Below are positions 3,263-18,255 of a DNA stretch of 48,297 nucleotides, piece after piece. Both the position numbers and the translations under genes were made by a program. Source of the stretch: Acidimicrobiia bacterium (GTDB lineage Bacteria > Actinomycetota > Acidimicrobiia > Spongiisociales > Spongiisociaceae); the NCBI GenBank assembly GCA_009841105.1, contig VXMM01000004.1, forward strand, positions 1-48,297, in the 5' to 3' direction. The notes beneath the pieces were generated by a model. The model saw only the letters and a program-made list of their open reading frames with translations, searched no databases and was not told where the DNA came from. The first letter of the stretch is position 1. Each line of letters starts with the position of its first letter.

Positions 3263-3708
3263 GACCCTGTTCGCGTTCCCCCGGAGGTCCGGTCCATCCA
3301 CCCGTGACAACCCGATCGCTCCAGTTCCTCCCCGGCAGCCATCCACGCACCCTCATCGCTGTCTTCCCTTACTCGCACTCCTGCTTCGGCCTTCTCGGGG
3401 GATTGCCGAAGAAACCCCTGGTGTCGGTACTCGTGGCCGCTGGCGTAGCTGGCCTCTCCACCGCCCCGGTGGCGGACCCACCTCGGCATTGGGGTTGGCC
3501 AGGCGGCCCGGGGTGTTGCCCCGAGCCTTGGTGGGGCGTGTGTCCCTCTGAGCGGATGTGTAGCCCGGACAGAGGTCCCTCCACAGCAACGGGCCCGCAG
3601 CTCGCCCGGCTCGCCGCCGAGGCCCGGGGTCGCTGCCAGGACCCTCGACCCTGTTGAGCCGCCGGCCGAAGGCCCAGGTGAGGGGGATGCGCGACCGCTG
3701 GGGGGTGG

Positions 3709-3728
3709 ATGCGCGACCGGTCGCGCAT
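3709..3728. repeat. 20-bp perfect palindrome ATGCGCGACCGGTCGCGCAT, copy 1
   Basis: Perfect inverted repeat, embedded in a longer sequence (about 3672-3790) that is also found at about 11815-11920. Both copies are followed by gagcgcgacccctgggggg and then by the GGTATGTTCGGT module, ahead of the abiE genes here and of the AlpA-like gene there. A degenerate third copy lies at 32171-32190. Probably a regulatory or recombination site shared by accessory modules. Confidence 0.65.
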
Positions 3729-4065
3729 GAGCGCGACCCCTGGGGGGTGGATGCGCGACCGGGTTGGGGGTCCGCCCCGGTATGTTCGGTGACGATAACA
3801 CGCCCCCGGTGACGGTTCCATGCGGGTTGGGGACGACACGGCGGGCTGGTATGGGACTTGCGGCGGTGAGCAGAGGGGAGGGGCGGATGGGGAACCGGAC
3901 CTATGCCCGGCCGGTGGACGCATCCGGGCGGTGGGTTGGCGGGAGCGGGGCATTTGCGACTGGGGCGCTTGGGCGAGCCGGGGTCGGTAGGTGGCTGGTC
4001 AGCGAGAGGGCGGGGGGTGGAATATGGGTGCTGTGGTTATGGTTGGTTCTAGTGGAGGTGTTGGG

Positions 4066-4878
4066 GTGGACCACGAAAAGTTCTTAGCTGTCGAGCCGGT
4101 GTTTACCGGCTCAGAGGTCGCTGAGTTCCTGGCCGAGTGTGGGGTGGCCCACCCGGTCCGAGAGGCCCGCCGCCTTGAGGAGCGGTGGGTGCGGGCGGGA
4201 CGGGTGGTGGTGGTGCGGCCTGGGTTGTTCGCGGTGGTGGCCGACGGTATCGACCCGGCCCGTTTCCAGCCGATGCCGGACCTGGTTTCGACCAAGATGG
4301 CCCCAGACGCGGTGGTGTCACACCACTCAGCCCTTGATTTTTGGGGTATCTCGTACTCCATGTGGTTCGACGCCGTGTACTCGGCGACCCACCCGCAGGC
4401 GCCGTTGGCTTTCCGGGCCATGTGCTACCAGGGTGTCCGATTCCCACAACGCCTTATCGATTCCGGGAACCAGCATTTCGGGGTGGTGACCCGAACCTAC
4501 GCGGACGGGGTGGTGCGGGTAACGGGGATGGAACGCACCCTGGTAGATGTGTTGGCGGATCCCGACTATGGGGGAAGCTGGGACGAGATCTACCAATCGG
4601 TGACCCGGGCAGACCACATCGACGTCGAGGCGGTCGCTGCTTACTGTCAGCTGCGGGACGGCAGCCCGGCTTTGCGAGCGAAGGTGGGGTTCTTCTTGGA
4701 CCAGCACCGAGAGCTGTGGGGAATCGGCAACTGTGAGTTGGACCAGTTCCGCCGCCAGGATCCGGCGCCAGCTGTCCATCTCGACCCGGCTCCCATTGAG
4801 TTGACCCATTACGTAGAAGAGTGGAATCTGGTGGTACCGGTAGAGGTCATCGAACGGCAATGGGAACTGGTCTTCTGA
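4066..4878 (+). CDS. abiEi: AbiEi-type antitoxin of a type IV toxin-antitoxin pair
   Basis: The 271-residue protein has the AbiEi layout: an N-terminal winged HTH ('FTGSEVAEFLAECG', 'RLEERWVRAGRVVVVRPGLF') followed by the antitoxin domain with 'SHHSALDFWGI' and 'VTGMERTLVDVLADPDYGG'. AbiEi proteins repress their operon and counteract the AbiEii nucleotidyltransferase without direct binding (known for the family). The frame is open from 3991, but GTG 4066 has the best ribosome-binding site (GGAGG at 4054-4058, 7 nt away). The 3' end overlaps abiEii by 19 bp. The palindrome-rich upstream region is a candidate operator. Confidence 0.85.
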   Translation: MDHEKFLAVEPVFTGSEVAEFLAECGVAHPVREARRLEERWVRAGRVVVVRPGLFAVVADGIDPARFQPMPDLVSTKMAPDAVVSHHSALDFWGISYSMWFDAVYSATHPQAPLAFRAMCYQGVRFPQRLIDSGNQHFGVVTRTYADGVVRVTGMERTLVDVLADPDYGGSWDEIYQSVTRADHIDVEAVAAYCQLRDGSPALRAKVGFFLDQHRELWGIGNCELDQFRRQDPAPAVHLDPAPIELTHYVEEWNLVVPVEVIERQWELVF

Positions 4879-6368
4879 CACCGCCGACCCGCCGGGAACT
4901 CAGGGCCCTAGCCGCTGCTACCGGTTTCGTCGCGGACCGGATTGAAAAGACCGTGCGCCTCCTGGCGCTGGCCGACGACATCGCCGCCCACCCATATTTG
5001 GGTGGGCGGTTGGCGCTGACCGGGGGCACGGCTTTGAACATGTTCGTCCTCCCGGCCCCGCGTCTGTCGTTCGATTTGGACTACCACTACATCGGAGCCG
5101 AAGACCTAGCCACGATGAAGACGGAGCGGCCCGCCGTCGAGGACGCCCTAGCGGGCCTGCTCCCGGCCCACGGGTTGGAGGTGAAGAGGCGACCCAACCT
5201 CGAGCGCGACCATGCGGGCGGTAAATGGGACCTCCGATACCGGAACGCGTTCGGCCGCAGTGAAGGCCTCTCGGTGGACGTCGGCTATGTACGGCGGGTG
5301 CCGCTGTGGACGACCACACGTCACGACTCCCACCGACTGGGCCGCTGGCAGGCCACCGATGTGCCCATCTTCGACATCCACGAAATCGCCGCCGGCAAAC
5401 TCTGCGCGCTATACGACCGCGGGTACGCCCGTGACCTGTTCGACGCCAGCCTGATCCCAAACCTCCCTGGGCTGCTCCCGGCCAAGCTCCGTGTCGCGTT
5501 CGTCGTCTACGGCGGCGGAGCCCGCCCCGACTGGCGCACGGTCTGCGCCAACCCACGCAAGGTCCAAGCCCCCTCTCTGGGCCGCCAACTCCGCCCGGCG
5601 CTGACCCACACTGACGCGCAGCGCACCCGACCAGCCGCCGCAGACGCCTACCTCGCCGAGCTCGAAGCCAAAGCCGCCACCGCACGGCGGATCGTGCTCC
5701 CCTTCACCCCCACAGAGCAAGCCTTCTTGGATGCACTGTTGGACTGGGGCCAGGTCGAACCCCACCTACTCACCGCAGACGAACATCTCCAAGACCGCAT
5801 CGCCACAGAACCATGGCTCCAATGGAAATCCCACAACACGCGCCGGCGGCTGCCCGCCCGACCGGTGGGTGTCCACGTCCGCCGCTACCAGGCTGATAAC
5901 TGGGGCTGGGAAGTAGCCACCACCGGACACCACAGCCGTCTGCTGTCCGGTCGGCACCCCACCCTCGAAGAAGCCGAAGCCGCCCGCGACTTCCTCGTCC
6001 GGGCCGTCAACGCCCACCCACAGGCACACATCGCGGGGCCGGGCCCCCAGCCCAAAGACCCGACGGTTAGGGTCTACTCCCACGCCCCGGACGGGAACTG
6101 GTACCTGCTATGCCTCAACGCCGACGGCAGCCTCGACGCCGTATCCCCGCCGTACCCCACCAACCACGCAGCCGCTGTCGCCCTCGACGGGCTCAGGCAC
6201 CTAGTCGAGGCCACCACCGACCGTGACATCGGCCACCGAGCCGCCGTCGAACCCACGTCCAACGCCTGCCGATGCTCCCCGAAGGGATGGCGTTGCGAAC
6301 ACATCGACATCGAGTTGGACGTACCAGAGGCAGAACCCCCCAACCGTGGACACGGGCTCAGCCTATGA
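4860..6368 (+). CDS. abiEii: AbiEii-type nucleotidyltransferase toxin with long C-terminal extension
   Basis: Residues 1-200 carry the AbiEii (DUF1814) motifs of the DNA polymerase beta-like nucleotidyltransferase fold: GGTALN (55-60), SFDLD (70-74), SVDV (138-141) and the K-x6-R-x4-D region 'GKLCALYDRGYARDLFD' (179-195). The toxin is expected to block growth by modifying a cellular target; tRNA acceptor stems are the target of related MenT proteins. The protein is 502 residues, whereas most AbiEii proteins are nearer 300; the extra 200 residues include 'DNWGWEVATTG' and a Cys-rich end 'CRCSPKGWRC'. ATG 4860 overlaps the antitoxin stop. A fragment of the same 3' end lies at 32963-33097. Confidence 0.85.
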   Translation: MGTGLLTPPTRRELRALAAATGFVADRIEKTVRLLALADDIAAHPYLGGRLALTGGTALNMFVLPAPRLSFDLDYHYIGAEDLATMKTERPAVEDALAGLLPAHGLEVKRRPNLERDHAGGKWDLRYRNAFGRSEGLSVDVGYVRRVPLWTTTRHDSHRLGRWQATDVPIFDIHEIAAGKLCALYDRGYARDLFDASLIPNLPGLLPAKLRVAFVVYGGGARPDWRTVCANPRKVQAPSLGRQLRPALTHTDAQRTRPAAADAYLAELEAKAATARRIVLPFTPTEQAFLDALLDWGQVEPHLLTADEHLQDRIATEPWLQWKSHNTRRRLPARPVGVHVRRYQADNWGWEVATTGHHSRLLSGRHPTLEEAEAARDFLVRAVNAHPQAHIAGPGPQPKDPTVRVYSHAPDGNWYLLCLNADGSLDAVSPPYPTNHAAAVALDGLRHLVEATTDRDIGHRAAVEPTSNACRCSPKGWRCEHIDIELDVPEAEPPNRGHGLSL

Positions 6369-6385
6369 AACGAACAGAAAAGCGA

Positions 6386-6407
6386 CCCCCCCCGGACCCT
6401 TGGGGGG
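6386..6407 (-). terminator. possible terminator between convergent operons
   Basis: CCCCCCC and GGGGGG arms (6386-6393 and 6402-6407) with an 8-nt loop can form a strong hairpin. Read on the minus strand it is followed by tcgctttt, a weak U-tract, about 130 bp after the DUF4268 stop. It could end the five-gene operon. On the plus strand there is no U-tract. Confidence 0.35.
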
Positions 6408-6533
6408 AACCACCCGACCAGCATCCACACCACCACACCCGAAAGCGCTCACAAGACAATACGCCGTCCCCGTCGGATAGGTCTGACGAGCCGGCGAGCC
6501 GGTTACCCATCTCCCGCTTGGATGGAGGGACTC

Positions 6534-7496
6534 CTAGATGAGGTCCTTCAGGTAGGGCATGAGCGTGTCGTGGAATCGGGTCATAGCGTCGGCCAGCACC
6601 TCATAGCCAGCTTCCCGTTCGTCAGCGGGTGAGCGCCAGCCATAAGCCCCCTCCGGGAACCAGTAGATGCGGCTGGACTGTAGGTTCGGCTTGTTCTCCC
6701 ACACCAGTTCGGTATCGAGAGCATTCTGGATTACGTCCCGATGACTAGCGAGTGAGTCGTACAGCTCGTCATTCTGCTCTTGGTTGCCCGACTCGATACG
6801 CAACTGGACACGGCAAGAGTTCGTCAGGACCCAGAACTGAAAGGAGAAGGGCCCTTTGCTGGCAATGGTCACATACGAAGATACAACCCTGGTGGCCCTG
6901 AACAAGGTACCTTTCCTGCTCATCGCTTTCTGCAGCCCCGCCCAGAACTTCTCTTGCATATCGCGACGATGACGGTCACCGGGCCCGATTGGCGGCGGTC
7001 CCCCGGATCTCCACTCATTCGGGCCAGCGACGAGGCGGAATCGGAAACCGGGGGCCGACTCGCCTATGCGGCCCGCTTCGATGGCGACAAGGAACAGGCG
7101 GATCCCATCGGAACCGTACGCCTCCGAATAGCGATTCCATTCGTCCGCCACCGCGACGAACTCATCACGGTGGGACTCGGCAACAACGATCACCGCCCGG
7201 CACTCCAGGCCGACCGCGTACGCGAGGGCCCGAGTGAGATGATCGTGATCGGCCTCGCCGTACTGGTTCTCCACCGCCCAGTTCCTGCCGGAGGAGTCCT
7301 TTGCCAGGATGTCGAGTCGGCGCCCCCCGGGCACGTCGACCTCGGTGCGGTCCAACTCCAGTTCGCCGATCTCGAGGTGCTCGGACAGAGCTTCCAGATT
7401 CTCGGCGAGCCAGGGTGTGAAATCCCTAGCCTCGCCCGGCCACACCTCGCGGATGTCGATCAGCTTGAACTCTTGGGGCGGGTTCGCAGTGGGCAT
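6534..7496 (-). CDS. DUF4268-family protein with PD-(D/E)XK-like nuclease N-terminus
   Basis: 320 residues, last gene of the five-gene operon, 10 bp after the ATPase. Residues 12-110 look like a restriction-endonuclease fold: 'RRLDILAKD' (D62) then 'WAVENQYGEADHDHLTRALAYA' with E76-N77-Q78, in which Q replaces the usual Lys, a known variant. Residues about 190-315 match DUF4268, with a C-terminal 'RFHDTLMPYLKDLI'. DUF4268 proteins are found in phage-defence and restriction contexts; the enzymatic activity is not established. A second, broken member of the family flanks the IS1595 element (13948-14246 and 18030-18255). Confidence 0.8.
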   Translation of the reverse strand: MPTANPPQEFKLIDIREVWPGEARDFTPWLAENLEALSEHLEIGELELDRTEVDVPGGRRLDILAKDSSGRNWAVENQYGEADHDHLTRALAYAVGLECRAVIVVAESHRDEFVAVADEWNRYSEAYGSDGIRLFLVAIEAGRIGESAPGFRFRLVAGPNEWRSGGPPPIGPGDRHRRDMQEKFWAGLQKAMSRKGTLFRATRVVSSYVTIASKGPFSFQFWVLTNSCRVQLRIESGNQEQNDELYDSLASHRDVIQNALDTELVWENKPNLQSSRIYWFPEGAYGWRSPADEREAGYEVLADAMTRFHDTLMPYLKDLI

Positions 7497-7506
7497 CTTG
7501 ATCAGG

Positions 7507-9144
7507 CTAATCCCTCTCCTCGGTCCCTTCCGCGGGTTCCGACCTGCGCATCTTCATCTTTTTTAGGCTGTGGCGAACGAGGTCTTGGGCAGACCGGGCG
7601 CTGATGTCGAGGAACCCGTCGGGCCAGTCCTCCGAAAGGCCTCCGTACTCGTTGGTCTCCGACTCTCGGTAATTGGTGATACCGTTCTTGTGCTCAGCGA
7701 AGATCAACTTGACCAGCTTCCCGGTCTGGTCGGTCTCATCGGCCGCGACCTGGTAGCGAAGTTGGTTGACGAGGTGGTCGCTGTGCGTTTCCACCAGAAT
7801 CTGGCGGCCAGCACGCACGAAGACGAGCAGAAAGTCCGCCATCCGCTTCTGTAGTTCCGGATGGAGAAGCGAATCCGGCTGTTCAAGAACCAACAGGTCC
7901 GCAGGCCTGCTCAGCAGGCACAGCAGTATCACGGGAAGTATCTGGCTGACGCCTACACCCACCGACGAGAGATCGACGAATGCCGGCACACCGCGCGGCC
8001 TGACCACCAAACCCGGAGCTAACCTACCATGCTCTCGAGTCTCCGCGGCCTCGACGAGGCCGAACCAATTGAGCCATTTGTTCAAGGCGTCGCCAATCGG
8101 TACAAACTGTTCGTGACCATCGGGCATCGGAAGCGATGCCCACGTACTAGCTTGGTCCCGTAAGACGGTTGCCGTGTGCTCTCCCTGAGTGCCGATACCT
8201 CTGACACCCGAAGAGACTACAGATCGCGAATCGGGTGGTGAAGCACGTAATGGACCAAGACAATGGACCCGTGACGAGAACAATCCATCCGACAGATCAT
8301 CAACCGTGCGCAATGACCATAACGGATTTTGGTCCATAGTCGTCACCAGTCTCGAAAACAGACCGTCTTCATTTTGTGTCTCGTTGCCGGTAATGTCAGA
8401 TTTGTCTGAACGGTGCCCCATATGTGTCAAGGGTTGTGCTGGGTTTATCGACCAGAATGGATGCAATTCGCTCACGCCTTCATCGATGGGGTCGTCAGCA
8501 AGCACAGATAACTCTATCCTGAAGGTTTTCGTTTGGATAAGGTGGCTGACTTGGACTAGTGGTAAGTCTGGTAGGCTCTGATGTCTCACTAGTTCGGCGA
8601 TTTTTCGTTGATCGATCGGTACCTTAACAGGCGTCCATAGCGCCAATTCCTTTTTAACACTGTCGACAGAAATACAGACAGACCCTGCCTCAATTCTAGA
8701 ATCGCCTTCTTCAGTTTCGGACTGTGTTAGGAATAAGGCCGCATCAAGGGCATAATCCTGGATCGCAGGCTCTGTATCCGAAGCTGTTGGTGCAATACCT
8801 GCGGAGTATCCAAGGACCTGGAGGCGGAAACCAACCATTATTGGTTCTCCAGATTCACGGTGCTGGATGTTAAGGACATCTGCATAGGATCCTAACCGAA
8901 CTAGTTTACCATTCAGTATGAATGTATCGTCTGCTGAATCTTCCTGAAGAGTCTGCACAGTTGCTGTTATAGCCTGTAGCAGAGAGCTCTTTCCGGAGCT
9001 ATTGGCACCAACAACTACAGATAGCGGACGTAGTGCAACATCTGTACAATCCGCTGATTTGAAATGTCTTAACGCTACACGCCGCAGTTGGAAAGGGTGA
9101 GTGCCCTTGCGAGCTAATCGTAACCTAAGGCCATCAGATGACAT
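7507..9144 (-). CDS. AAA/ABC-type ATPase, DUF3696-like (OLD/SMC-related)
   Basis: 545 residues. The Walker A motif is GANSSGKSS (about 46-54), near the N-terminus as in RecF/OLD-like ATPases; the Walker B region is 'DLLVLEQPDSLLHPELQ' (about 416-432), followed by 'ETHSDHLVNQLRY' with the switch histidine. The end 'GFLDISARSAQDLVRHS' fits DUF3696. Such ATPases typically act as sensors or motors coupled to a nuclease, and the next gene downstream is a DUF4268 nuclease-like protein 10 bp away. The upstream gene is 14 bp away. The N-terminal half (8340-9144) is visibly more AT-rich than the C-terminal half and its neighbours, which points to mosaic origin. Confidence 0.82.
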   Translation of the reverse strand: MSSDGLRLRLARKGTHPFQLRRVALRHFKSADCTDVALRPLSVVVGANSSGKSSLLQAITATVQTLQEDSADDTFILNGKLVRLGSYADVLNIQHRESGEPIMVGFRLQVLGYSAGIAPTASDTEPAIQDYALDAALFLTQSETEEGDSRIEAGSVCISVDSVKKELALWTPVKVPIDQRKIAELVRHQSLPDLPLVQVSHLIQTKTFRIELSVLADDPIDEGVSELHPFWSINPAQPLTHMGHRSDKSDITGNETQNEDGLFSRLVTTMDQNPLWSLRTVDDLSDGLFSSRVHCLGPLRASPPDSRSVVSSGVRGIGTQGEHTATVLRDQASTWASLPMPDGHEQFVPIGDALNKWLNWFGLVEAAETREHGRLAPGLVVRPRGVPAFVDLSSVGVGVSQILPVILLCLLSRPADLLVLEQPDSLLHPELQKRMADFLLVFVRAGRQILVETHSDHLVNQLRYQVAADETDQTGKLVKLIFAEHKNGITNYRESETNEYGGLSEDWPDGFLDISARSAQDLVRHSLKKMKMRRSEPAEGTEERD

Positions 9145-9158
9145 CTCTGATCTCTATT

Positions 9159-10121
9159 CTAGGCATCGATCAACACGAACTTGTGTTCTTTCACGAGATC
9201 GACGGAGCTACCGTGATCCCGGTCATACACATAGGAAGCTGAGATGATATGGTGTCCGGACCGTTTCTGGAAGGTTGTGTAGTTTTTCTTCCGCTCACGT
9301 GTCCGTCCGTGTGTCGACTGGTCGACCTTCGTTGCGGTCGGGACATTGATGGTCGACAATGCTTGTTCTACTAGGGGCCAAAAGCCTTTGTATAGGTCCT
9401 CGCCCAGCGACCCGAAGGTGTCGATCCACCTGCTGATCTTCAATGCCCCTACTTCTTCTAAGACCGCAACGTCCTCTATGTCGAACGTGATGTCGTACTG
9501 GGCTACCAGATCGAGCAGCCGGCACAGCACGGTCGCAGGGTCATCGCAGGCACCCAGATTCTCCAAGGCTAGGCAGCCGGGGTCGAGCTGGAATGGTACG
9601 CCTTCATAGAGGAGAGCGGAGGTGCAGTCCGCCGCCAACGCTCTGATGGCATCACCTTCCTGAGCCTTGAAGTCCCATCGGGGATCGAACCGGCCACGGA
9701 GCGGCGGACCGGTCCTCAGGCCCGCGTGTTCGAAGGGCTGACCGACGGCGACATCCCCGAGCGCCTCCAAGGCTTCCTCGTCGAGCTGTCCGACAAGAGC
9801 GCCAAGCTGGTGTGTCCAGACAACCCCAACAGAACTCGCCTGAGCCACGATCCGATAGGGCAAGGTGGAGTGCTGGGGCGAAACGACCAGGTCCGAGTTA
9901 GCTGCAAGCTCTACGTGGGGATGGGCCAACATGACTTCAGCGAAGATGCTCTGCTGGTGTTGGCCCAGCCTTAGAACGAGGACCATCCGTTCGGGAACAG
10001 GATCGCCTCCGGGCACGCGAATCGTTAGGACCTGGCGACGTTCTACCGGCATGCGGAGACCGGCTGAGATACGGTTCGGGCGCCGAGCAACAGCTGATCG
10101 GATCGACTGCGGGACGGTCAT
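9159..10121 (-). CDS. hypothetical protein, third gene of the five-gene operon
   Basis: 320 residues; I do not recognise the family. The N-terminal half is beta-rich ('PERMVLVLRL', 'NSDLVVSPQ', 'LPYRIVAQA') with a distant look of the PemK/MazF fold, a weak guess. The second half is mostly helical, acidic around 'DITFDIEDVAVLEEVGALK', and ends with a basic patch 'RTRERKKNYTTFQKRSGHH' and 'VKEHKFVLIDA'. Its start overlaps the stop of the sigma-like gene by 4 bp, implying coupled translation and probably a shared complex. No signal peptide or membrane segment is visible. Confidence 0.75.
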   Translation of the reverse strand: MTVPQSIRSAVARRPNRISAGLRMPVERRQVLTIRVPGGDPVPERMVLVLRLGQHQQSIFAEVMLAHPHVELAANSDLVVSPQHSTLPYRIVAQASSVGVVWTHQLGALVGQLDEEALEALGDVAVGQPFEHAGLRTGPPLRGRFDPRWDFKAQEGDAIRALAADCTSALLYEGVPFQLDPGCLALENLGACDDPATVLCRLLDLVAQYDITFDIEDVAVLEEVGALKISRWIDTFGSLGEDLYKGFWPLVEQALSTINVPTATKVDQSTHGRTRERKKNYTTFQKRSGHHIISASYVYDRDHGSSVDLVKEHKFVLIDA

Positions 10122-11098
10122 CGCTCAGCGCTCTTCCCGAGCGAATGGCTGATCCGAGCCAGCAGGTTCTCCATGGCGGGGACGTGGCAGTCGGCGTCGA
10201 ACTGGGACATCAGTTCCGTGGCCAATCGTTCCAGAACATCCCGTTTTCTTTTCGCTACCCACGGTCGCGAGCGCCCGAGCCGTGCCCCTATGTCCCGGTC
10301 GGCGATCCCTTGGCTCTTGCTGAGCAGTATCCATCGCTCTGGCTCGCTAAGACCTCGAGCGAACCTTTCGACCGCTGCTCGCATCTGCGCATCCTCCGCT
10401 GCCGCTTCGGGGGTCGACTCTTCCGACGGATAGTCCCCCTCAGGATCTTGAAGGAACGTTGGCAGCCACGATGTCAACAGAATCTCCAAGACTCGGGCCA
10501 AGTCCCGCTCACTCAACGCCCCGACCTCGCTTACCGCTCGTTCGAGCAGCAGCCGCAGGTCGACCGTCGTGTAAATCATCGAAGCCCGCGAGGAACTGCT
10601 GCTCGCCGCCAGCTGCGGGATGTCACGAACGGCACCGGCAATGCGGGAGATTGCGGAATCCGAAAGGTCGGCGAGAGGGCCCGAGAAGTCGCCTCCCGAA
10701 AACCACACCTGCCTGCCTGCTGAATGAAGCCGAAACGGAGGCTCCTGTGCCAGCCTCCGTACCCGAGTGAGCAACCGGTCCACCACAGTCTTGCGGCGCC
10801 GGTGAGCCAACGTTCGCCTGACTTGCAAAGCGAGCAGGCGCCTCCACGCCTCGAGGGAGGCCGCCTGATCAAAGACATACTCGAGCTGCGCCTCGCCCAA
10901 GAGCCGGTCCGCAACAACCTGCTGAGCCAGGTCCTGAACGCTCTCATCAGACCAGGGCTCGCCGTCGTTGTACACACAGGGCGGATAGCGGCGCGCCACG
11001 ACACCGGTCATCTCAAGCACGAGGGCCCAGATGCGCGGCCCGATCCGAACCGACTGGTATTCCACCCTCAACTCGACAAGTGTCATCTTCGCAACCAC
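10118..11098 (-). CDS. divergent sigma-70-like regulator
   Basis: 326 residues. Residues about 45-115 resemble sigma region 2: 'WSDESVQDLAQQVVADRLL' is like region 2.2, and 'WRRLLALQVRRTLAHRRRK' is like 2.3-2.4. Residues about 245-295 form a region-4-type HTH: 'LSEPERWILLSKSQGIADRD', then 'IGARLGRSRPWVAKRKRDVL'. The roughly 130-residue linker is longer than in ECF sigma factors. It could direct RNA polymerase to the operon or to phage or host promoters, or simply bind DNA. It overlaps the upstream gene by 16 bp and the downstream gene by 4 bp. The region 4 call is fair; the region 2 call is weaker. Confidence 0.72.
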   Translation of the reverse strand: MVAKMTLVELRVEYQSVRIGPRIWALVLEMTGVVARRYPPCVYNDGEPWSDESVQDLAQQVVADRLLGEAQLEYVFDQAASLEAWRRLLALQVRRTLAHRRRKTVVDRLLTRVRRLAQEPPFRLHSAGRQVWFSGGDFSGPLADLSDSAISRIAGAVRDIPQLAASSSSSRASMIYTTVDLRLLLERAVSEVGALSERDLARVLEILLTSWLPTFLQDPEGDYPSEESTPEAAAEDAQMRAAVERFARGLSEPERWILLSKSQGIADRDIGARLGRSRPWVAKRKRDVLERLATELMSQFDADCHVPAMENLLARISHSLGKSAER

Positions 11099-11580
11099 CG
11101 CTCCATCTCGGCATACAAGGCCGACGGCTCAGGCTCCGCACATAACCAGTTGCGCGTAGACAGTTCAGGAGCTTTCACGGTAACGCGAACGTCAAGAACC
11201 GTCCCATCCTTGTTAATGCCACACTCCGGATAGACCGCACGGTGATGGTGCCTAGGGTGGGGGTGCCCACGACGCTGCCGCTTGGTGGTTCTGGGGAAGA
11301 ACACAAGATCAGGAAAGGGATAACCCCACGGACTCGCGAGGACAACCGGACGCCGGCCGCCCTGCGCCGCCTTGCCGGGAGCGAAAACACCGCCGTCAGC
11401 TTTCTCGGCAACTGCCTTCTCCGACACCCGAAACCATGCTCCAACCTTGTACACATCGTGCGGGTCGAAGCCCAGATCGGTCAGCAGCTGGTACTCGGGC
11501 GTCACGGGTACCCATAACTCCAAGTGTTCAGCGGAGGCGGTCAGCAAAGGACATGCCACGCAACCTACCCCCGACCCCAA
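11083..11580 (-). CDS. hypothetical protein, first gene of the five-gene operon
   Basis: Up to 165 residues, family not recognised. The frame opens at TTG 11580; GTG 11559 with GGGGTAGG just upstream is an alternative start. Visible features: a hydrophobic beta-rich N-terminus ('LELWVPVTPEYQLLTDLGFD'), a central 'ASPWGYPFPDLVFFPR', a His/Arg cluster 'RGHPHPRHHHRAVYPECG' and an acidic end. The His/Cys cluster could bind metal, which is speculation. It overlaps the sigma-like gene by 16 bp and heads the operon; the 400 bp upstream hold no gene before the AlpA-like regulator, which is divergent. Confidence 0.65.
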   Translation of the reverse strand: MGSGVGCVACPLLTASAEHLELWVPVTPEYQLLTDLGFDPHDVYKVGAWFRVSEKAVAEKADGGVFAPGKAAQGGRRPVVLASPWGYPFPDLVFFPRTTKRQRRGHPHPRHHHRAVYPECGINKDGTVLDVRVTVKAPELSTRNWLCAEPEPSALYAEMERWLRR

Positions 11581-11832
11581 AGGTCGGCAATGCGGCTCCC
11601 CAGAAATGAGGGGCTAGGGGTCCTTGGGGGATGTCGGAATCCACCGGTAGAGGGGAAGGGTTCTCCCATAGTCGAAGTTCAGCAACATTCCGAGGCAGGA
11701 GGAATGGGTAGAACCTAGGCCGACGTTGATCTGGTGGGGATCGGCGACGGCGGAGACGGGCCGCTTGCGGTGGTAGTCCGGTCCCCTACGCCCCCCGGGG
11801 TTATGCCAGCTGCGAAGGCGCAGGTGAGGGGG

Positions 11833-11852
11833 ATGCGCGACCGGTCGCGCAT
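11833..11852. repeat. 20-bp palindrome ATGCGCGACCGGTCGCGCAT, copy 2
   Basis: Identical to 3709-3728, within a block that is similar over about 100 bp (11815-11920 versus 3672-3790). It lies between the divergent five-gene operon and the AlpA-like gene, so it may control either. Confidence 0.65.
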
Positions 11853-11899
11853 GAGCGCGACCCCTGGGGGGTGGTTCCGCGACCGGGTTGGGGGCCCTC

Positions 11900-12000
11900 T
11901 TGGGTATGTTCGGTTACGACTGCATAGCCGGGACCGTTTCCGTGTCGGATGGAGGGGCCACGGATTCGGAGGGCTGGCATCGGATCGCAGGCAATTTGGA
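11900..12000 (+). repeat. upstream module with GGTATGTTCGGT, copy 2
   Basis: GGTATGTTCGGTTACGAC (11903-11920) starts about 90 bp that are closely repeated at 12540-12640 (shared: ccgtgtcggatg, ggggcca, ggagggctggca). The short core also occurs at 3779-3790. Here the module directly precedes the AlpA-like gene, so it probably contains that gene's promoter. Confidence 0.55.
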
Positions 12001-12018
12001 GGAGTGAGGGGAGTGCGG

Positions 12019-12279
12019 ATGAGAGAACAAACCCACAACAACAAGAAACCGAGGGCCAGCCATCCGCGCTCGGTGATGCTGCCTCCGGGGGGTGGGCGGG
12101 TGGTGAGACTGCCCGAAGTGTTGGAGATCACCGGGTTGAGCAGGACCACGATCTGGCGTCGGGAACGGGAGGGGTCGTTCCCTGCGCCGTTCCGTTTGGG
12201 CGGCGAAGGTACCCGGGCGGTGGGTTGGCGGGAACAAGACATCTACGACTGGATCGACAGCCTGTCCTCCGCAGCGTGA
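12019..12279 (+). CDS. AlpA/excisionase-like HTH regulator
   Basis: 86 residues from ATG 12019, preceded by GGAGGAGTGAGGGGA; GTG 12013 in the same frame is also possible. The core 'VVRLPEVLEITGLSRTTIWR' with 'REREGSFPAPFRLG' and 'VGWREQDIYDWIDS' is the classic AlpA winged-HTH pattern, in which the helix reads a site and Trp-Arg-x3-I/V contacts follow. AlpA proteins activate or repress integrase/excision genes of prophages and islands. No integrase is adjacent; the only one in the window is at 38.6 kb, so the two may or may not belong together. Confidence 0.8.
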   Translation: MREQTHNNKKPRASHPRSVMLPPGGGRVVRLPEVLEITGLSRTTIWRREREGSFPAPFRLGGEGTRAVGWREQDIYDWIDSLSSAA

Positions 12280-12394
12280 TTACCCACCCAACACCGAGGC
12301 TTATATCGGGAGTCGCTCCGGCAGCGGATACATCCCACCGGGATCTATCAGCGGTCGCCAGCGACCAGCACACATCCCGCCGCGACCTGCTTCA

Positions 12395-12539: not shown

Positions 12540-12868
12540 GCGCCTCGGTATGTTCGGTTACGACAGCAGAGCGTGGACCGTCCCCGTGTCGGATGAGGGG
12601 CCATGGATTGGAGGGCTGGCACCGGGTTGCCGGAAGTGACCGCGGCGGTGACACCAGGTGCCGGGGTCCTGCATCGGTCATCCTCCAGATCGCCATCTCA
12701 ACAGCCACTTGGCGTCCTCCCCATTTACTAGAACCTACTTGATGTCACTCGGCTGTAACACTCCCCCGCCGACACACGGCCACCGATGCCAGGGTTCAGG
12801 TCTTTGCGGCGCGTACGGGCTCTCAGCTACCCCGATGATCCGCCTCTGACTGGCCTCGGCAACCGTCT
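12540..12868. other. non-coding stretch with repeat module copy 3
   Basis: It begins with a second copy of the 11900-12000 module (GGTATGTTCGGT at 12547-12558), but no AlpA-like gene follows. The rest shows no open frame with a ribosome-binding site. It looks like a duplicated upstream region that lost its gene. Confidence 0.5.
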
Positions 12869-13929
12869 CAGCCTCGGCGGGCCGCGTGTTCGTACGCCTC
12901 GGTCAGGGCCGTGAGCAGATCCTCGCTGACGTTCCGAGTCGTGTTACCTTGTCCGACCCGACTTCCCGCCAGTCTCTCGATCCTGTCGATGAATGGGGGT
13001 GCCTTCTTGTCGAAGACGCTCCGCCAGAACTGGAGGTACGCACCCCCGTCGTTCCAGATCGTGACCAGGCCCACGTTCTCGGCCACTAGTAGCGGCCGCA
13101 GGGTGAATCGCTTCGCTCCCTTGCCCTCGGAGGTTGTGAGTCGTACCCAACCGTTCGCTTCGAGGCTACGAGCCCACCGAAGCAGGCTGTCCAGTGTCTC
13201 ATGGCTCTCGGGAGGTGCTTGGTCGATGCTCTGCTCGAATCTATCGCTCCCCCGATAGAGAGTGCCGGACTTGCCGCGGCGTTTCTCGTTGACGGTTACT
13301 TCGTGCCGTTCGGGGGTTACCCGTTGCGGTAGGACGACGGAAGCACCGCCCACGTCGAAGGAGTTAACGCCGACTAAGTCGATCATCAACTTGTCGGTGA
13401 CGTGTTCCAAGTAAGCGACCAGCGTCATCAACTCCGCCGGCACGTCGTCGAGTACGAACACGAGCCGGAACCTGCCCCCTTGCAGGTGCTCGTCGAGAGA
13501 TGTTGCGAACTCCTCGGCGTCGAGCGCCTCCTCTTGGACCGATCTCATCGCATCCACAAGGGACTCGTGGCCGCGCCGCTTCAGCTCCGAACTGAAGCGG
13601 TCCTCCAGTTGTTCCCGCGTCGTACCGTGGAGGTTCGCCGCGTAGGCCAGGATTTGGGCAACGACAGCGCGGCGAGCCTCGTTGTTCTGCGCCAGCTTGA
13701 CCTCGATGATGACCGGTCGACCCGACGCCTCCACCCCTACGAGGTCCGCGTAACCCGATCCCAAGGGCACTTCCCTACCGAGTACCAGGAGTGCCGGCGC
13801 GCCGGCCAGCGGCAGCATCTCCGGGGTTTCCTCGATCAGCCTATGTAGCGTCGCCTCGTCGGGGAACCCCTCAGGCCGGCTGAGTTGCCAGCCTTCATCG
13901 TTTCGCGTCCAGATCCCCGAGACGGTCAT
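12868..13929 (-). CDS. NucS/DUF91-like PD-(D/E)XK nuclease-family protein
   Basis: 353 residues. The N-terminal domain has the signature of the NucS/DUF91 endonuclease fold: 'LHRLIEETPEMLPL' (29-41), 'SGYADLVGVEASGRPVIIEVKL' split as D62 and E76-V77-K78, then Q92 in 'AVVAQILAYAANL'. D-ExK-Q is the expected active site. The C-terminal 200 residues are unassigned and contain basic patches ('NEKRRGKSGTLYRGSDRF'). It starts 18 bp after the stop of a DUF4268 C-terminal fragment, so a DUF4268-nuclease operon existed before the IS1595 insertion. DNA cleavage of invading or mismatched DNA is plausible, but not shown. Confidence 0.8.
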   Translation of the reverse strand: MTVSGIWTRNDEGWQLSRPEGFPDEATLHRLIEETPEMLPLAGAPALLVLGREVPLGSGYADLVGVEASGRPVIIEVKLAQNNEARRAVVAQILAYAANLHGTTREQLEDRFSSELKRRGHESLVDAMRSVQEEALDAEEFATSLDEHLQGGRFRLVFVLDDVPAELMTLVAYLEHVTDKLMIDLVGVNSFDVGGASVVLPQRVTPERHEVTVNEKRRGKSGTLYRGSDRFEQSIDQAPPESHETLDSLLRWARSLEANGWVRLTTSEGKGAKRFTLRPLLVAENVGLVTIWNDGGAYLQFWRSVFDKKAPPFIDRIERLAGSRVGQGNTTRNVSEDLLTALTEAYEHAARRG

Positions 13930-14484: not shown

Positions 14485-15480
14485 ATGACCGCTAAAGCGC
14501 CGGGACGGGCCGATCGGGAGGGCATGTCGTTCGTGGAACTGTTCGACATGTTCCCCGACGAAACCGCAGCTGTGGAATGGTTCGAGCGGATACGCTGGCC
14601 GAACGGGGTGGACGTCTGCCCACGCTGCGGCGAGATAGGGTATGTGGCGGCGGTGCCAAACGCGAAGCCGATGCCCTACCGGTGCGCTTCCTGCCGCCGC
14701 TACTTCTCAGTCCGTACCGGCACGGTGATGGAATCCTCGAGGCTGCCTGTGCGTAAGTGGGTGATCGCCCTGTATCTGGTATCCACCAACCTCAAAGGCG
14801 TCAGCAGCATGAAGCTCCACCGCGACCTCGGAGTGACCCAGTCGACCGCGTGGTTCATGCTGGGCCGCATCCGGGAGGCGTGGGCAGACGCCGCCGACCT
14901 CGTCCTCGACGGCACGGTGGAAGTGGACGAGACGTTCATCGGCGGTAAGGAGATGAACAAGCACGCCCACAAGAAACTCAACGCTGGCCGCGGTGTTGTG
15001 GGCAAGAAGGCTGTGGTGGGTGCCCGGTCGCGTGATGGCAAGGTGACCGCTGCGGTGGTGGACGACACGAAACGGGCCACGCTGCACGGGTTCATCCACA
15101 CCCATGTAGCCGCAGGGTCCAGGGTGTTCACCGACGACGCTCTCGCCTATCGCACTCTCGGCGAGTCGGATGATCTGGACCACGCCGCTGTGCGCCACTC
15201 GGTCGGCGAGTACGTGCGGGGTGAGGTCCACACCAACGGGATGGAGTCGTTCTGGTCGATGCTGAAACGGGGCTACTACGGCACCTACCACAAGATGTCG
15301 TTCAAGCACCTCCGCCGCTATGTGGCCGAGTTCGCAGCCCGCCACAACGTCCGGGACTTGGACACGTTGGATCAGATGGTCGCGTTGGCGAAGGGCATGG
15401 AGGGGAAGCGGCTCATGTACGCTGATCTCATCGCAGGGCCGCAGGTGTGCGGACCTCGCCCAGCTAGTAGGGGAGTCTGA
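14485..15480 (+). CDS. IS1595-family transposase
   Basis: 331 residues. The N-terminal zinc ribbon has C45-x2-C48 and C67-x2-C70. The catalytic region shows 'VEVDETFIGGKEMNKH' (D148), 'VFTDDALAY' (D217) and 'HTNGMESFWSMLKRGYYGTY' (N251, E254, K261), the ISXO2/IS1595 pattern, with 'LRRYVAEFAARHNVR' after it. It cuts and joins the element ends; IS1595 elements normally leave 8-bp duplications. ATG 14485 has AGGAGA 5 nt upstream. The length is normal for the family and the gene looks intact, so the element may be mobile. Confidence 0.93.
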   Translation: MTAKAPGRADREGMSFVELFDMFPDETAAVEWFERIRWPNGVDVCPRCGEIGYVAAVPNAKPMPYRCASCRRYFSVRTGTVMESSRLPVRKWVIALYLVSTNLKGVSSMKLHRDLGVTQSTAWFMLGRIREAWADAADLVLDGTVEVDETFIGGKEMNKHAHKKLNAGRGVVGKKAVVGARSRDGKVTAAVVDDTKRATLHGFIHTHVAAGSRVFTDDALAYRTLGESDDLDHAAVRHSVGEYVRGEVHTNGMESFWSMLKRGYYGTYHKMSFKHLRRYVAEFAARHNVRDLDTLDQMVALAKGMEGKRLMYADLIAGPQVCGPRPASRGV

Positions 15481-18029: not shown

Positions 18030-18255
18030 TCCAATAAGCTTTCCACGACCACCCGAACTCCGGTGGTGGTGTCCCGGAACACAGCGTCCGCGCGGAACGA
18101 CCCGACAGCCACTTCTTGGCCTTCGAGTTCAGATCCATCCCGAGTTCCCGCCCCAACAGGTGCGGATGGTCCGCCAGCCACGGCGTGAAGTCCCGCGCTT
18201 CATCCGCCCACACCGATCGCAGCGGGACCGCTTCCAGTTCCGCGACTTCGACCAT
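18030..18255 (-). pseudogene. DUF4268 gene, N-terminal fragment with frameshift
   Basis: GTG/ATG region near 18255 starts '[18 protein letters not shown]' and '[10 protein letters not shown]', closely parallel to residues 12-45 of the intact DUF4268 protein (6534-7496). At about 18125 the reading frame shifts by one base; the continuation '[17 protein letters not shown]' and 'VRVVVES' is in the next frame. It stops at the IS1595 right end, where the catalytic E of ExQ would lie. The rest of the protein is at 13948-14246. The gene is therefore broken three ways: frameshift, insertion and deletion of the middle. Confidence 0.72.

Follow-up and report, generated by a model that had tools for sequence, protein, structure and literature searches.

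Locus Layout

The locus described here raises the question of which of its genes belong to one system and what that system might do. It lies in a stretch of 48,297 nucleotides of acidimicrobial DNA, called the window. A preliminary description had read five closely packed genes in it as a single compact operon, a candidate defence or stress system in which an ATPase would activate a nuclease under dedicated transcriptional control. All five minus-strand open reading frames, here named A to E, are present where that description had placed them (Table 1), and so are its neighbors, an AbiE pair and a second nuclease-like protein at 12868-13929 that is weakly PDC-S11/NucS-like. The latter is followed by an IS1595-like transposase reading frame at 14485-15480, its family assigned by eye. 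The spacing called for one correction. The B/C overlap of 4 bp and the gaps of 14 bp (C/D) and 10 bp (D/E) were recovered as described, whereas the A/B overlap of 16 bp had depended on an upstream GTG. Because the homologs of B begin at the equivalent of the ATG at 11086, A and B most likely share just 4 bp (ATGA). Searches of A, B, and C against Pfam yielded no significant family, and none of the three was matched by a PADLOC model.

Table 1. Positions of the genes, the neighboring AbiE pair and the cassette border in the window.
Feature	Coordinates	Strand	Basis or remark
Gene A: small protein	11083..11580	minus	Start codon uncertain; conserved part about 11083-11463
Gene B: sigma-like protein	10118..11086	minus	Sigma region 4 at residues ~220-297
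Gene C: N-terminal MazF/PemK-like domain, D.RW.fK motif, variable C-terminal part	9159..10121	minus	Profile-profile comparison
Gene D: AAA_15/AAA_21, DUF3696-like ATPase	7507..9144	minus	Pfam; nearest PADLOC model NsnB of Menshen
Gene E: DUF4268 nuclease-like protein, PADLOC candidate PDC-S11	6534..7496	minus	Pfam, PADLOC
AbiEi (3991-4878) and AbiEii (4821-6368)	3991..6368	plus	PADLOC 1.4e-67 and 5.4e-77
Border of the A-D cassette at the D/E junction	7457..7507		End of homology with G006; identity step with G007

Recurrence of Genes A to D

Seven diverged loci from six genera, three families, and two classes carry genes A, B, C, and D in one constant order, a recurrence that exceeds chance; the window and genome G007 are counted as one locus, and seven genomes are involved in all. 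When 149 relatives were searched with C, a copy 99% identical to that of the window was found in G007, and remote homologs were found once in G011 and twice in G013, each of them within an A-B-C-D set. A profile of C reached G343 and G352, members of another family of the same class that both carry all four genes, B of G352 being broken by an in-frame stop. A phylum sample added G511, which belongs to the other class and has A-B-C-D as well. Across the diverged loci, identity to the window proteins ranges from 31 to 54% for B, 20 to 47% for C, 20 to 40% for A, and 31 to 41% for D. Searches with C extended to several hundred genomes of actinobacteria, drawn in samples that overlapped, and since only actinobacterial genomes were included, with few candidates scored per genome, the spread of A-D is a lower bound.

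The co-location expected of all five genes thus holds for four of them, which recur together, and fails for E. In this reduced form the earlier suggestion of an undescribed compact cassette that combines a sigma-like protein with an ATPase was borne out, as A-D travel together and as a set match no named system. Their combination is absent from the PADLOC (2023) models, and no paper on it was found in the literature searched, a body of text that misses many subscription papers. The separate parts have known relatives; it is their combination that is undescribed.

Gene E and the Border of the Cassette

The identification of E as a DUF4268 protein held firmly (Pfam 1.5e-15; PADLOC PDC-S11 1.8e-58), and E is a member of the PDC-S11/DUF4268 group that stands outside the A-D set. 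It is absent downstream of D at all six of the other A-D loci, namely those of G011, G013 (both copies), G343, G352, and G511. Homologs of E without A-D alongside are found in G001, G004, G005, and G006 as well as on contig C63 of the window's own genome, and neither B nor C was found in G001-G006. Genome G011 contains both an E homolog and A-D, about 287 kb apart on one contig.

Two independent comparisons agree that the recently exchanged cassette has its border at the D/E junction. The AbiEi-AbiEii-E stretch of G006, a genome without A-D, is syntenic with window positions 3990-7473 at 90% identity, and the homology breaks off at 7473, just within the 5' end of E. When the window is compared with G007 in steps of 200 bp, AbiE and E are 75-97% identical and A-D 97-100%, the change falling between 7457 and 7687; values of dS are 0.004-0.028 for A-D and 0.158 for E. 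Because the homology with G006 stops at the same point where identity and dS change in the comparison with G007, A-D are a separate, recently moved cassette. Its other end is at 11759, the last position covered by the G007 contig, or beyond. The same alignments indicate that AbiEi and AbiEii are resident neighbors sharing their history with E, and that E belongs to this neighboring locus, its adjacency to A-D here being happenstance. Together with the recurrence described above, these comparisons establish the gene set of A-D, its order, spread, and mobility, and its independence from E.

The arrangement originally proposed, with the nuclease E activated by the ATPase D and the sigma-like protein in control, now appears highly improbable. 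D and E do lie only 10 bp apart on one strand in both the window and G007, and in this lineage the two may be co-transcribed, but E is missing from the six other A-D loci, occurs on its own, is far removed from A-D in G011, and differs sharply from A-D in history at the D/E border. On its absence elsewhere, its separate occurrence, and its different history, the unity of the five genes was rejected, and the ATPase-nuclease pair under dedicated control, which the gene order had seemed to imply, found no support.

Several further sequences related to this region were noted. A lone paralog of E at G000:C63:65660-66625, in the same genome as the window, shows 67% protein identity, its N-terminal DNA being 87% identical, and is followed by a VapC-like toxin-antitoxin pair recognized by eye. 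Within the window, a DUF4268-like gene fragment at 18142-18240 has 48% identity to E residues 9-41 and is perhaps a decayed copy. Two stretches, 11819-12384 and 3338-3805, are similar to the G006 DNA upstream of AbiEi and flank the AbiE/E/A-D block on both sides; they could have served as the recombination substrates that brought in the cassette. In G006 itself, locus L133 (G006:C34, 2761-6105) consists of a single frame of 1114 aa that joins an AbiEii nucleotidyltransferase domain to a PQQ-type beta-propeller at its opposite end.

Genomic Neighborhoods

The A-D cassette is patchy in its distribution, mobile, and often but not always found in defence neighborhoods. In G511 the genes after D, all on its strand, are brxA (PADLOC 2.7e-31), a brxB-like gene whose Pfam match (E 0.003) falls below the cut-off, and brxC (9e-59), so that A-D stand directly upstream of brxA-brxB-brxC. 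Despite this position the A-D proteins are not BREX proteins, and other A-D loci are without BREX. The cassette of G352 is followed by Vsr (1e-17) and a type II methyltransferase (3e-124). One of the two copies in G013 has in its vicinity an SMC/AAA ATPase with Mad3/LmuB-like matches, and the other adjoins a tyrosine integrase. No defence gene was recognized in the A-D neighborhoods of G011 and G343. At locus L011 (G013:C242, 6680-8322) the tyrosine integrase downstream of A-D abuts a partial DprA-like frame, as judged by eye, and this junction suggests that an element has integrated at dprA.

These surroundings could also be explained if A-D were a regulatory or maintenance module of mobile elements, serving for example excision, transfer, or cargo expression, and not itself a means of defence. 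The integrase beside one G013 copy and the patchy spread and recent transfer of A-D are in keeping with this explanation, as is the presence of C-like domains on Mycobacterium and Euzebya plasmids, where no recognized B or D lies beside them. An integrase is nearby at only one of the seven loci, however, the cassette has been found leading a BREX operon and adjoining restriction genes, and the type of ATPase represented by D recurs in defence systems. We consider a mobile-element module unlikely.

Features of Proteins D and B

Protein D is an ATPase of the AAA_15 (4e-19) and AAA_21 (5.5e-18) type in Pfam, with conserved Walker A, Walker B, and H-loop motifs. Its earlier designation as a DUF3696-like ATPase stands as to the ATPase, whereas DUF3696 itself (E 0.014) falls below the Pfam cut-off. 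The C-terminal half of D fits the PADLOC model NsnB at 8e-58 in the window and at up to 2e-70 elsewhere, and NsnB is the best PADLOC match of D at each of the six loci in a joint scan, and in G511 too. Further matches of the window protein are to HEC-03B (1.5e-36) and PDC-M55A (6e-27), the ATPase subunits of the PADLOC candidates HEC-03 and PDC-M55, whose other candidate subunits match none of A, B, and C. D thus resembles one component of Menshen (NsnA-NsnB-NsnC). The NsnA and NsnC models gave no PADLOC match at E <= 1 to A, B, C, or E, and the B and C proteins scanned at other loci were unmatched too; with NsnA and NsnC missing, membership of A-D in Menshen was rejected.

The middle region of D is variable in length and sequence, and one reading of this is variable sensing or exchange of the region. 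In the window and at L009, L010, L025, and L026, GC3 is about 0.1-0.5 in the 5' and middle part of the gene versus 0.6-0.9 in the conserved 3' part. The contrast is seen at several independent acidimicrobial loci and not in G511, and the variable region may have been exchanged from AT-rich donors.

Protein B carries a sigma-70-family region 4 DNA-binding domain. The description of B as sigma-like was upheld for its C-terminal ~80 residues, which are sigma region 4 by both profile and fold, whereas the family match of the window protein is weak (NCBIfam TIGR02937, sigma70-ECF, E 0.0018) and below the cut-off. Region 4 has a PDB profile match to a sigma factor at 3e-5, and compared with ECF sigma factors by hhalign it scores 40.8 against a shuffle maximum of 22.5. 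The fold of residues 220-297 matches almost only sigma factors, with Z up to 9.1, in a single-sequence model whose pLDDT is 60-86 there and 53 overall, making it usable for region 4 only. An N-terminal stretch of B resembles region 2, reading 'VEDLVQDV...LLG..QLAYLFDVA..L..WR.LL' in G011; a profile comparison of this region was not significant, 9 of 100 shuffles scoring as high, and Pfam Sigma70_r2 did not match B. In G511, TIGR02937 aligns over residues 25-285 of B, spanning both sigma regions, at 9.5e-7, which is below the cut-off. We describe B as sigma-like; it may be a true sigma factor. No viral, phage, or plasmid homologs of B were found.

Features of Proteins C and A

The N-terminal ~100 residues of C align by hhalign with about 27 PemK/MazF toxins from relatives at a probability of 81-87% and a score of 37-42, none of 100 shuffles scoring above 20. 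This supports the presence of a MazF/PemK-like domain, which in single C sequences lies below Pfam detection. C and its D.RW.fK motif are conserved at all seven loci, and the C-terminal part is variable. The position of the MazF catalytic Thr is occupied by T, H, S, or G across nine C sequences, and as it is not conserved, C is probably no RNase. A profile of C misses the ordinary PemK proteins that are numerous in the same genomes; C is therefore a family of its own. No useful PDB sequence relatives of C were found by profile. C is a candidate anti-sigma factor and would then inhibit B. A remote C-like protein in G686, likewise adjoining a sigma-like gene, has an N-terminal zf-HC2 finger of the anti-sigma type (0.004, below the cut-off), and its top five PDB matches, all weak (0.35), are all to MazF; the locus has no D.

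Protein A has the invariant residues GxW, R, HxxH, CxI, G, and CxEP at all seven loci, a pattern that suggests a metal site. Compared with PemK by hhalign it scores 20 against a maximum of 16.5 in 100 shuffles, at a probability of only 5%, and a relation to MazF is possible though weak. Arg and Thr are found at MazF-like positions in six of the seven copies; both are lost in G511, where HxxH and the two C residues are kept, and RNase activity is therefore not the conserved feature of A. No relation of A to C could be detected, profile searches of the PDB gave no useful sequence relatives of A, and its single-sequence structure model (pLDDT 33) was unusable.

The main rival reading of the cassette turns on these proteins and on D. 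It takes A-D as an effector complex like Menshen, with D as sensor or motor ATPase in the manner of NsnB, B as only a DNA-binding adaptor with a helix-turn-helix of the sigma-4 type, and C and A as MazF-fold parts, A being a toxic RNase released on infection; there would be no transcriptional response. The NsnB match of D at the six loci and in G511, the non-significant region 2 of B, and the Arg and Thr of A all speak in its favor. Its weak points are the relation of A to MazF, the G511 copy of A, which has lost both putative catalytic residues and kept its HxxH/C/C set, and the NsnA and NsnC models, which match none of A, B, C, and E. On balance an effector complex of this kind seems rather unlikely.

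A Possible Transcriptional Switch

The reading preferred here, plausible though still short of likely, is that A-D constitute a mobile cassette of four genes and probably serve defence, responding to infection with a transcription switch. The ATPase D, through its highly variable middle region, would detect a feature of the invader and change state with ATP. D would then act on C, which until that point would keep the sigma-like protein B inactive through its MazF-fold domain, a domain that lacks a conserved catalytic Thr. Freed B would recruit RNA polymerase to dedicated promoters, either of the cassette itself or of other genes, and A might tune the switch through a zinc-type HxxH/C/C site or be a MazF-like effector. 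Every functional step is our inference, among them the role of B as a true sigma factor, that of C as its inhibitor, and phage as the target. Dedicated transcriptional control, for which gene order had been the original argument, is now a better-grounded suggestion, given region 4 of B, the MazF-like domain of C, and the G686 zinc finger.

In support of the switch are the constant order of A-D at seven loci, the separate and recent transfer of A-D relative to E and AbiE, and the copies found by brxA-brxB-brxC, Vsr and a methyltransferase, an SMC/AAA ATPase, and a tyrosine integrase. Region 4 of B, the MazF/PemK-like N-terminus of C, the zf-HC2 finger in G686, and the logic of CalpL/T/S point the same way. 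Counting against it, no obvious effector is found among A-D, a search for a shared promoter motif upstream of A returned only scattered 9-11-mers, region 2 of B is not significant, and no defence gene was recognized near the G011 and G343 copies. The zf-HC2 and MazF matches in G686 are moreover weak, and that locus is without D.

Comparison with Sigma-Factor Release in Type III CRISPR

To our knowledge, the only known cases in which infection triggers the release of a sigma factor belong to type III CRISPR, namely CalpL/T/S and the Csx30 system, and CalpT reportedly was identified as a MazF homolog in the 2023 Nature paper on CalpL. The proposed switch follows a similar logic. CalpL-CalpT-CalpS, a type III CRISPR system, comprises a SAVED-Lon protease, an anti-sigma factor, and an ECF sigma factor, and CalpT holds CalpS until infection (PMC11417357, PMC12751052). 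Like these proteins, A-D place a sigma-like protein beside a MazF-like partner and a putative sensor in one operon. In contrast to CalpL/T/S, A-D have no recognized CRISPR genes alongside, their sensor would be an AAA/DUF3696-type ATPase, and they include the extra small protein A. No SAVED-Lon protease like CalpL was found among A-D or the adjacent window genes. In the proposed scheme D would stand in for CalpL, sensing and triggering, with C and B as the anti-sigma/sigma pair.

A bolder form of the proposal, possible but doubtful, is a CRISPR-free immune circuit in which an OLD/DUF3696-type ATPase would sense the invader and set free a sigma factor held by an anti-sigma protein of MazF fold. 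The cassette would move by itself and would have been installed in front of a BREX operon, there to serve for control or early warning. If this is true, sigma release is a defence strategy more general than type III CRISPR, and D-type ATPases, of which few triggers and outputs are known, gain a simple read-out in the form of a promoter.

A different combination of related parts was observed at locus L032 (G686:C7, 6079-9747 and 11397-12893). Here a distant pair, one member sigma-like and the other MazF-like with a zinc finger of the anti-sigma type, is followed by a protein with a HEMAH (HExxH) motif and, further on, by a JAB-ThiF fusion. This is possibly a further sigma-based defence locus that does without D.
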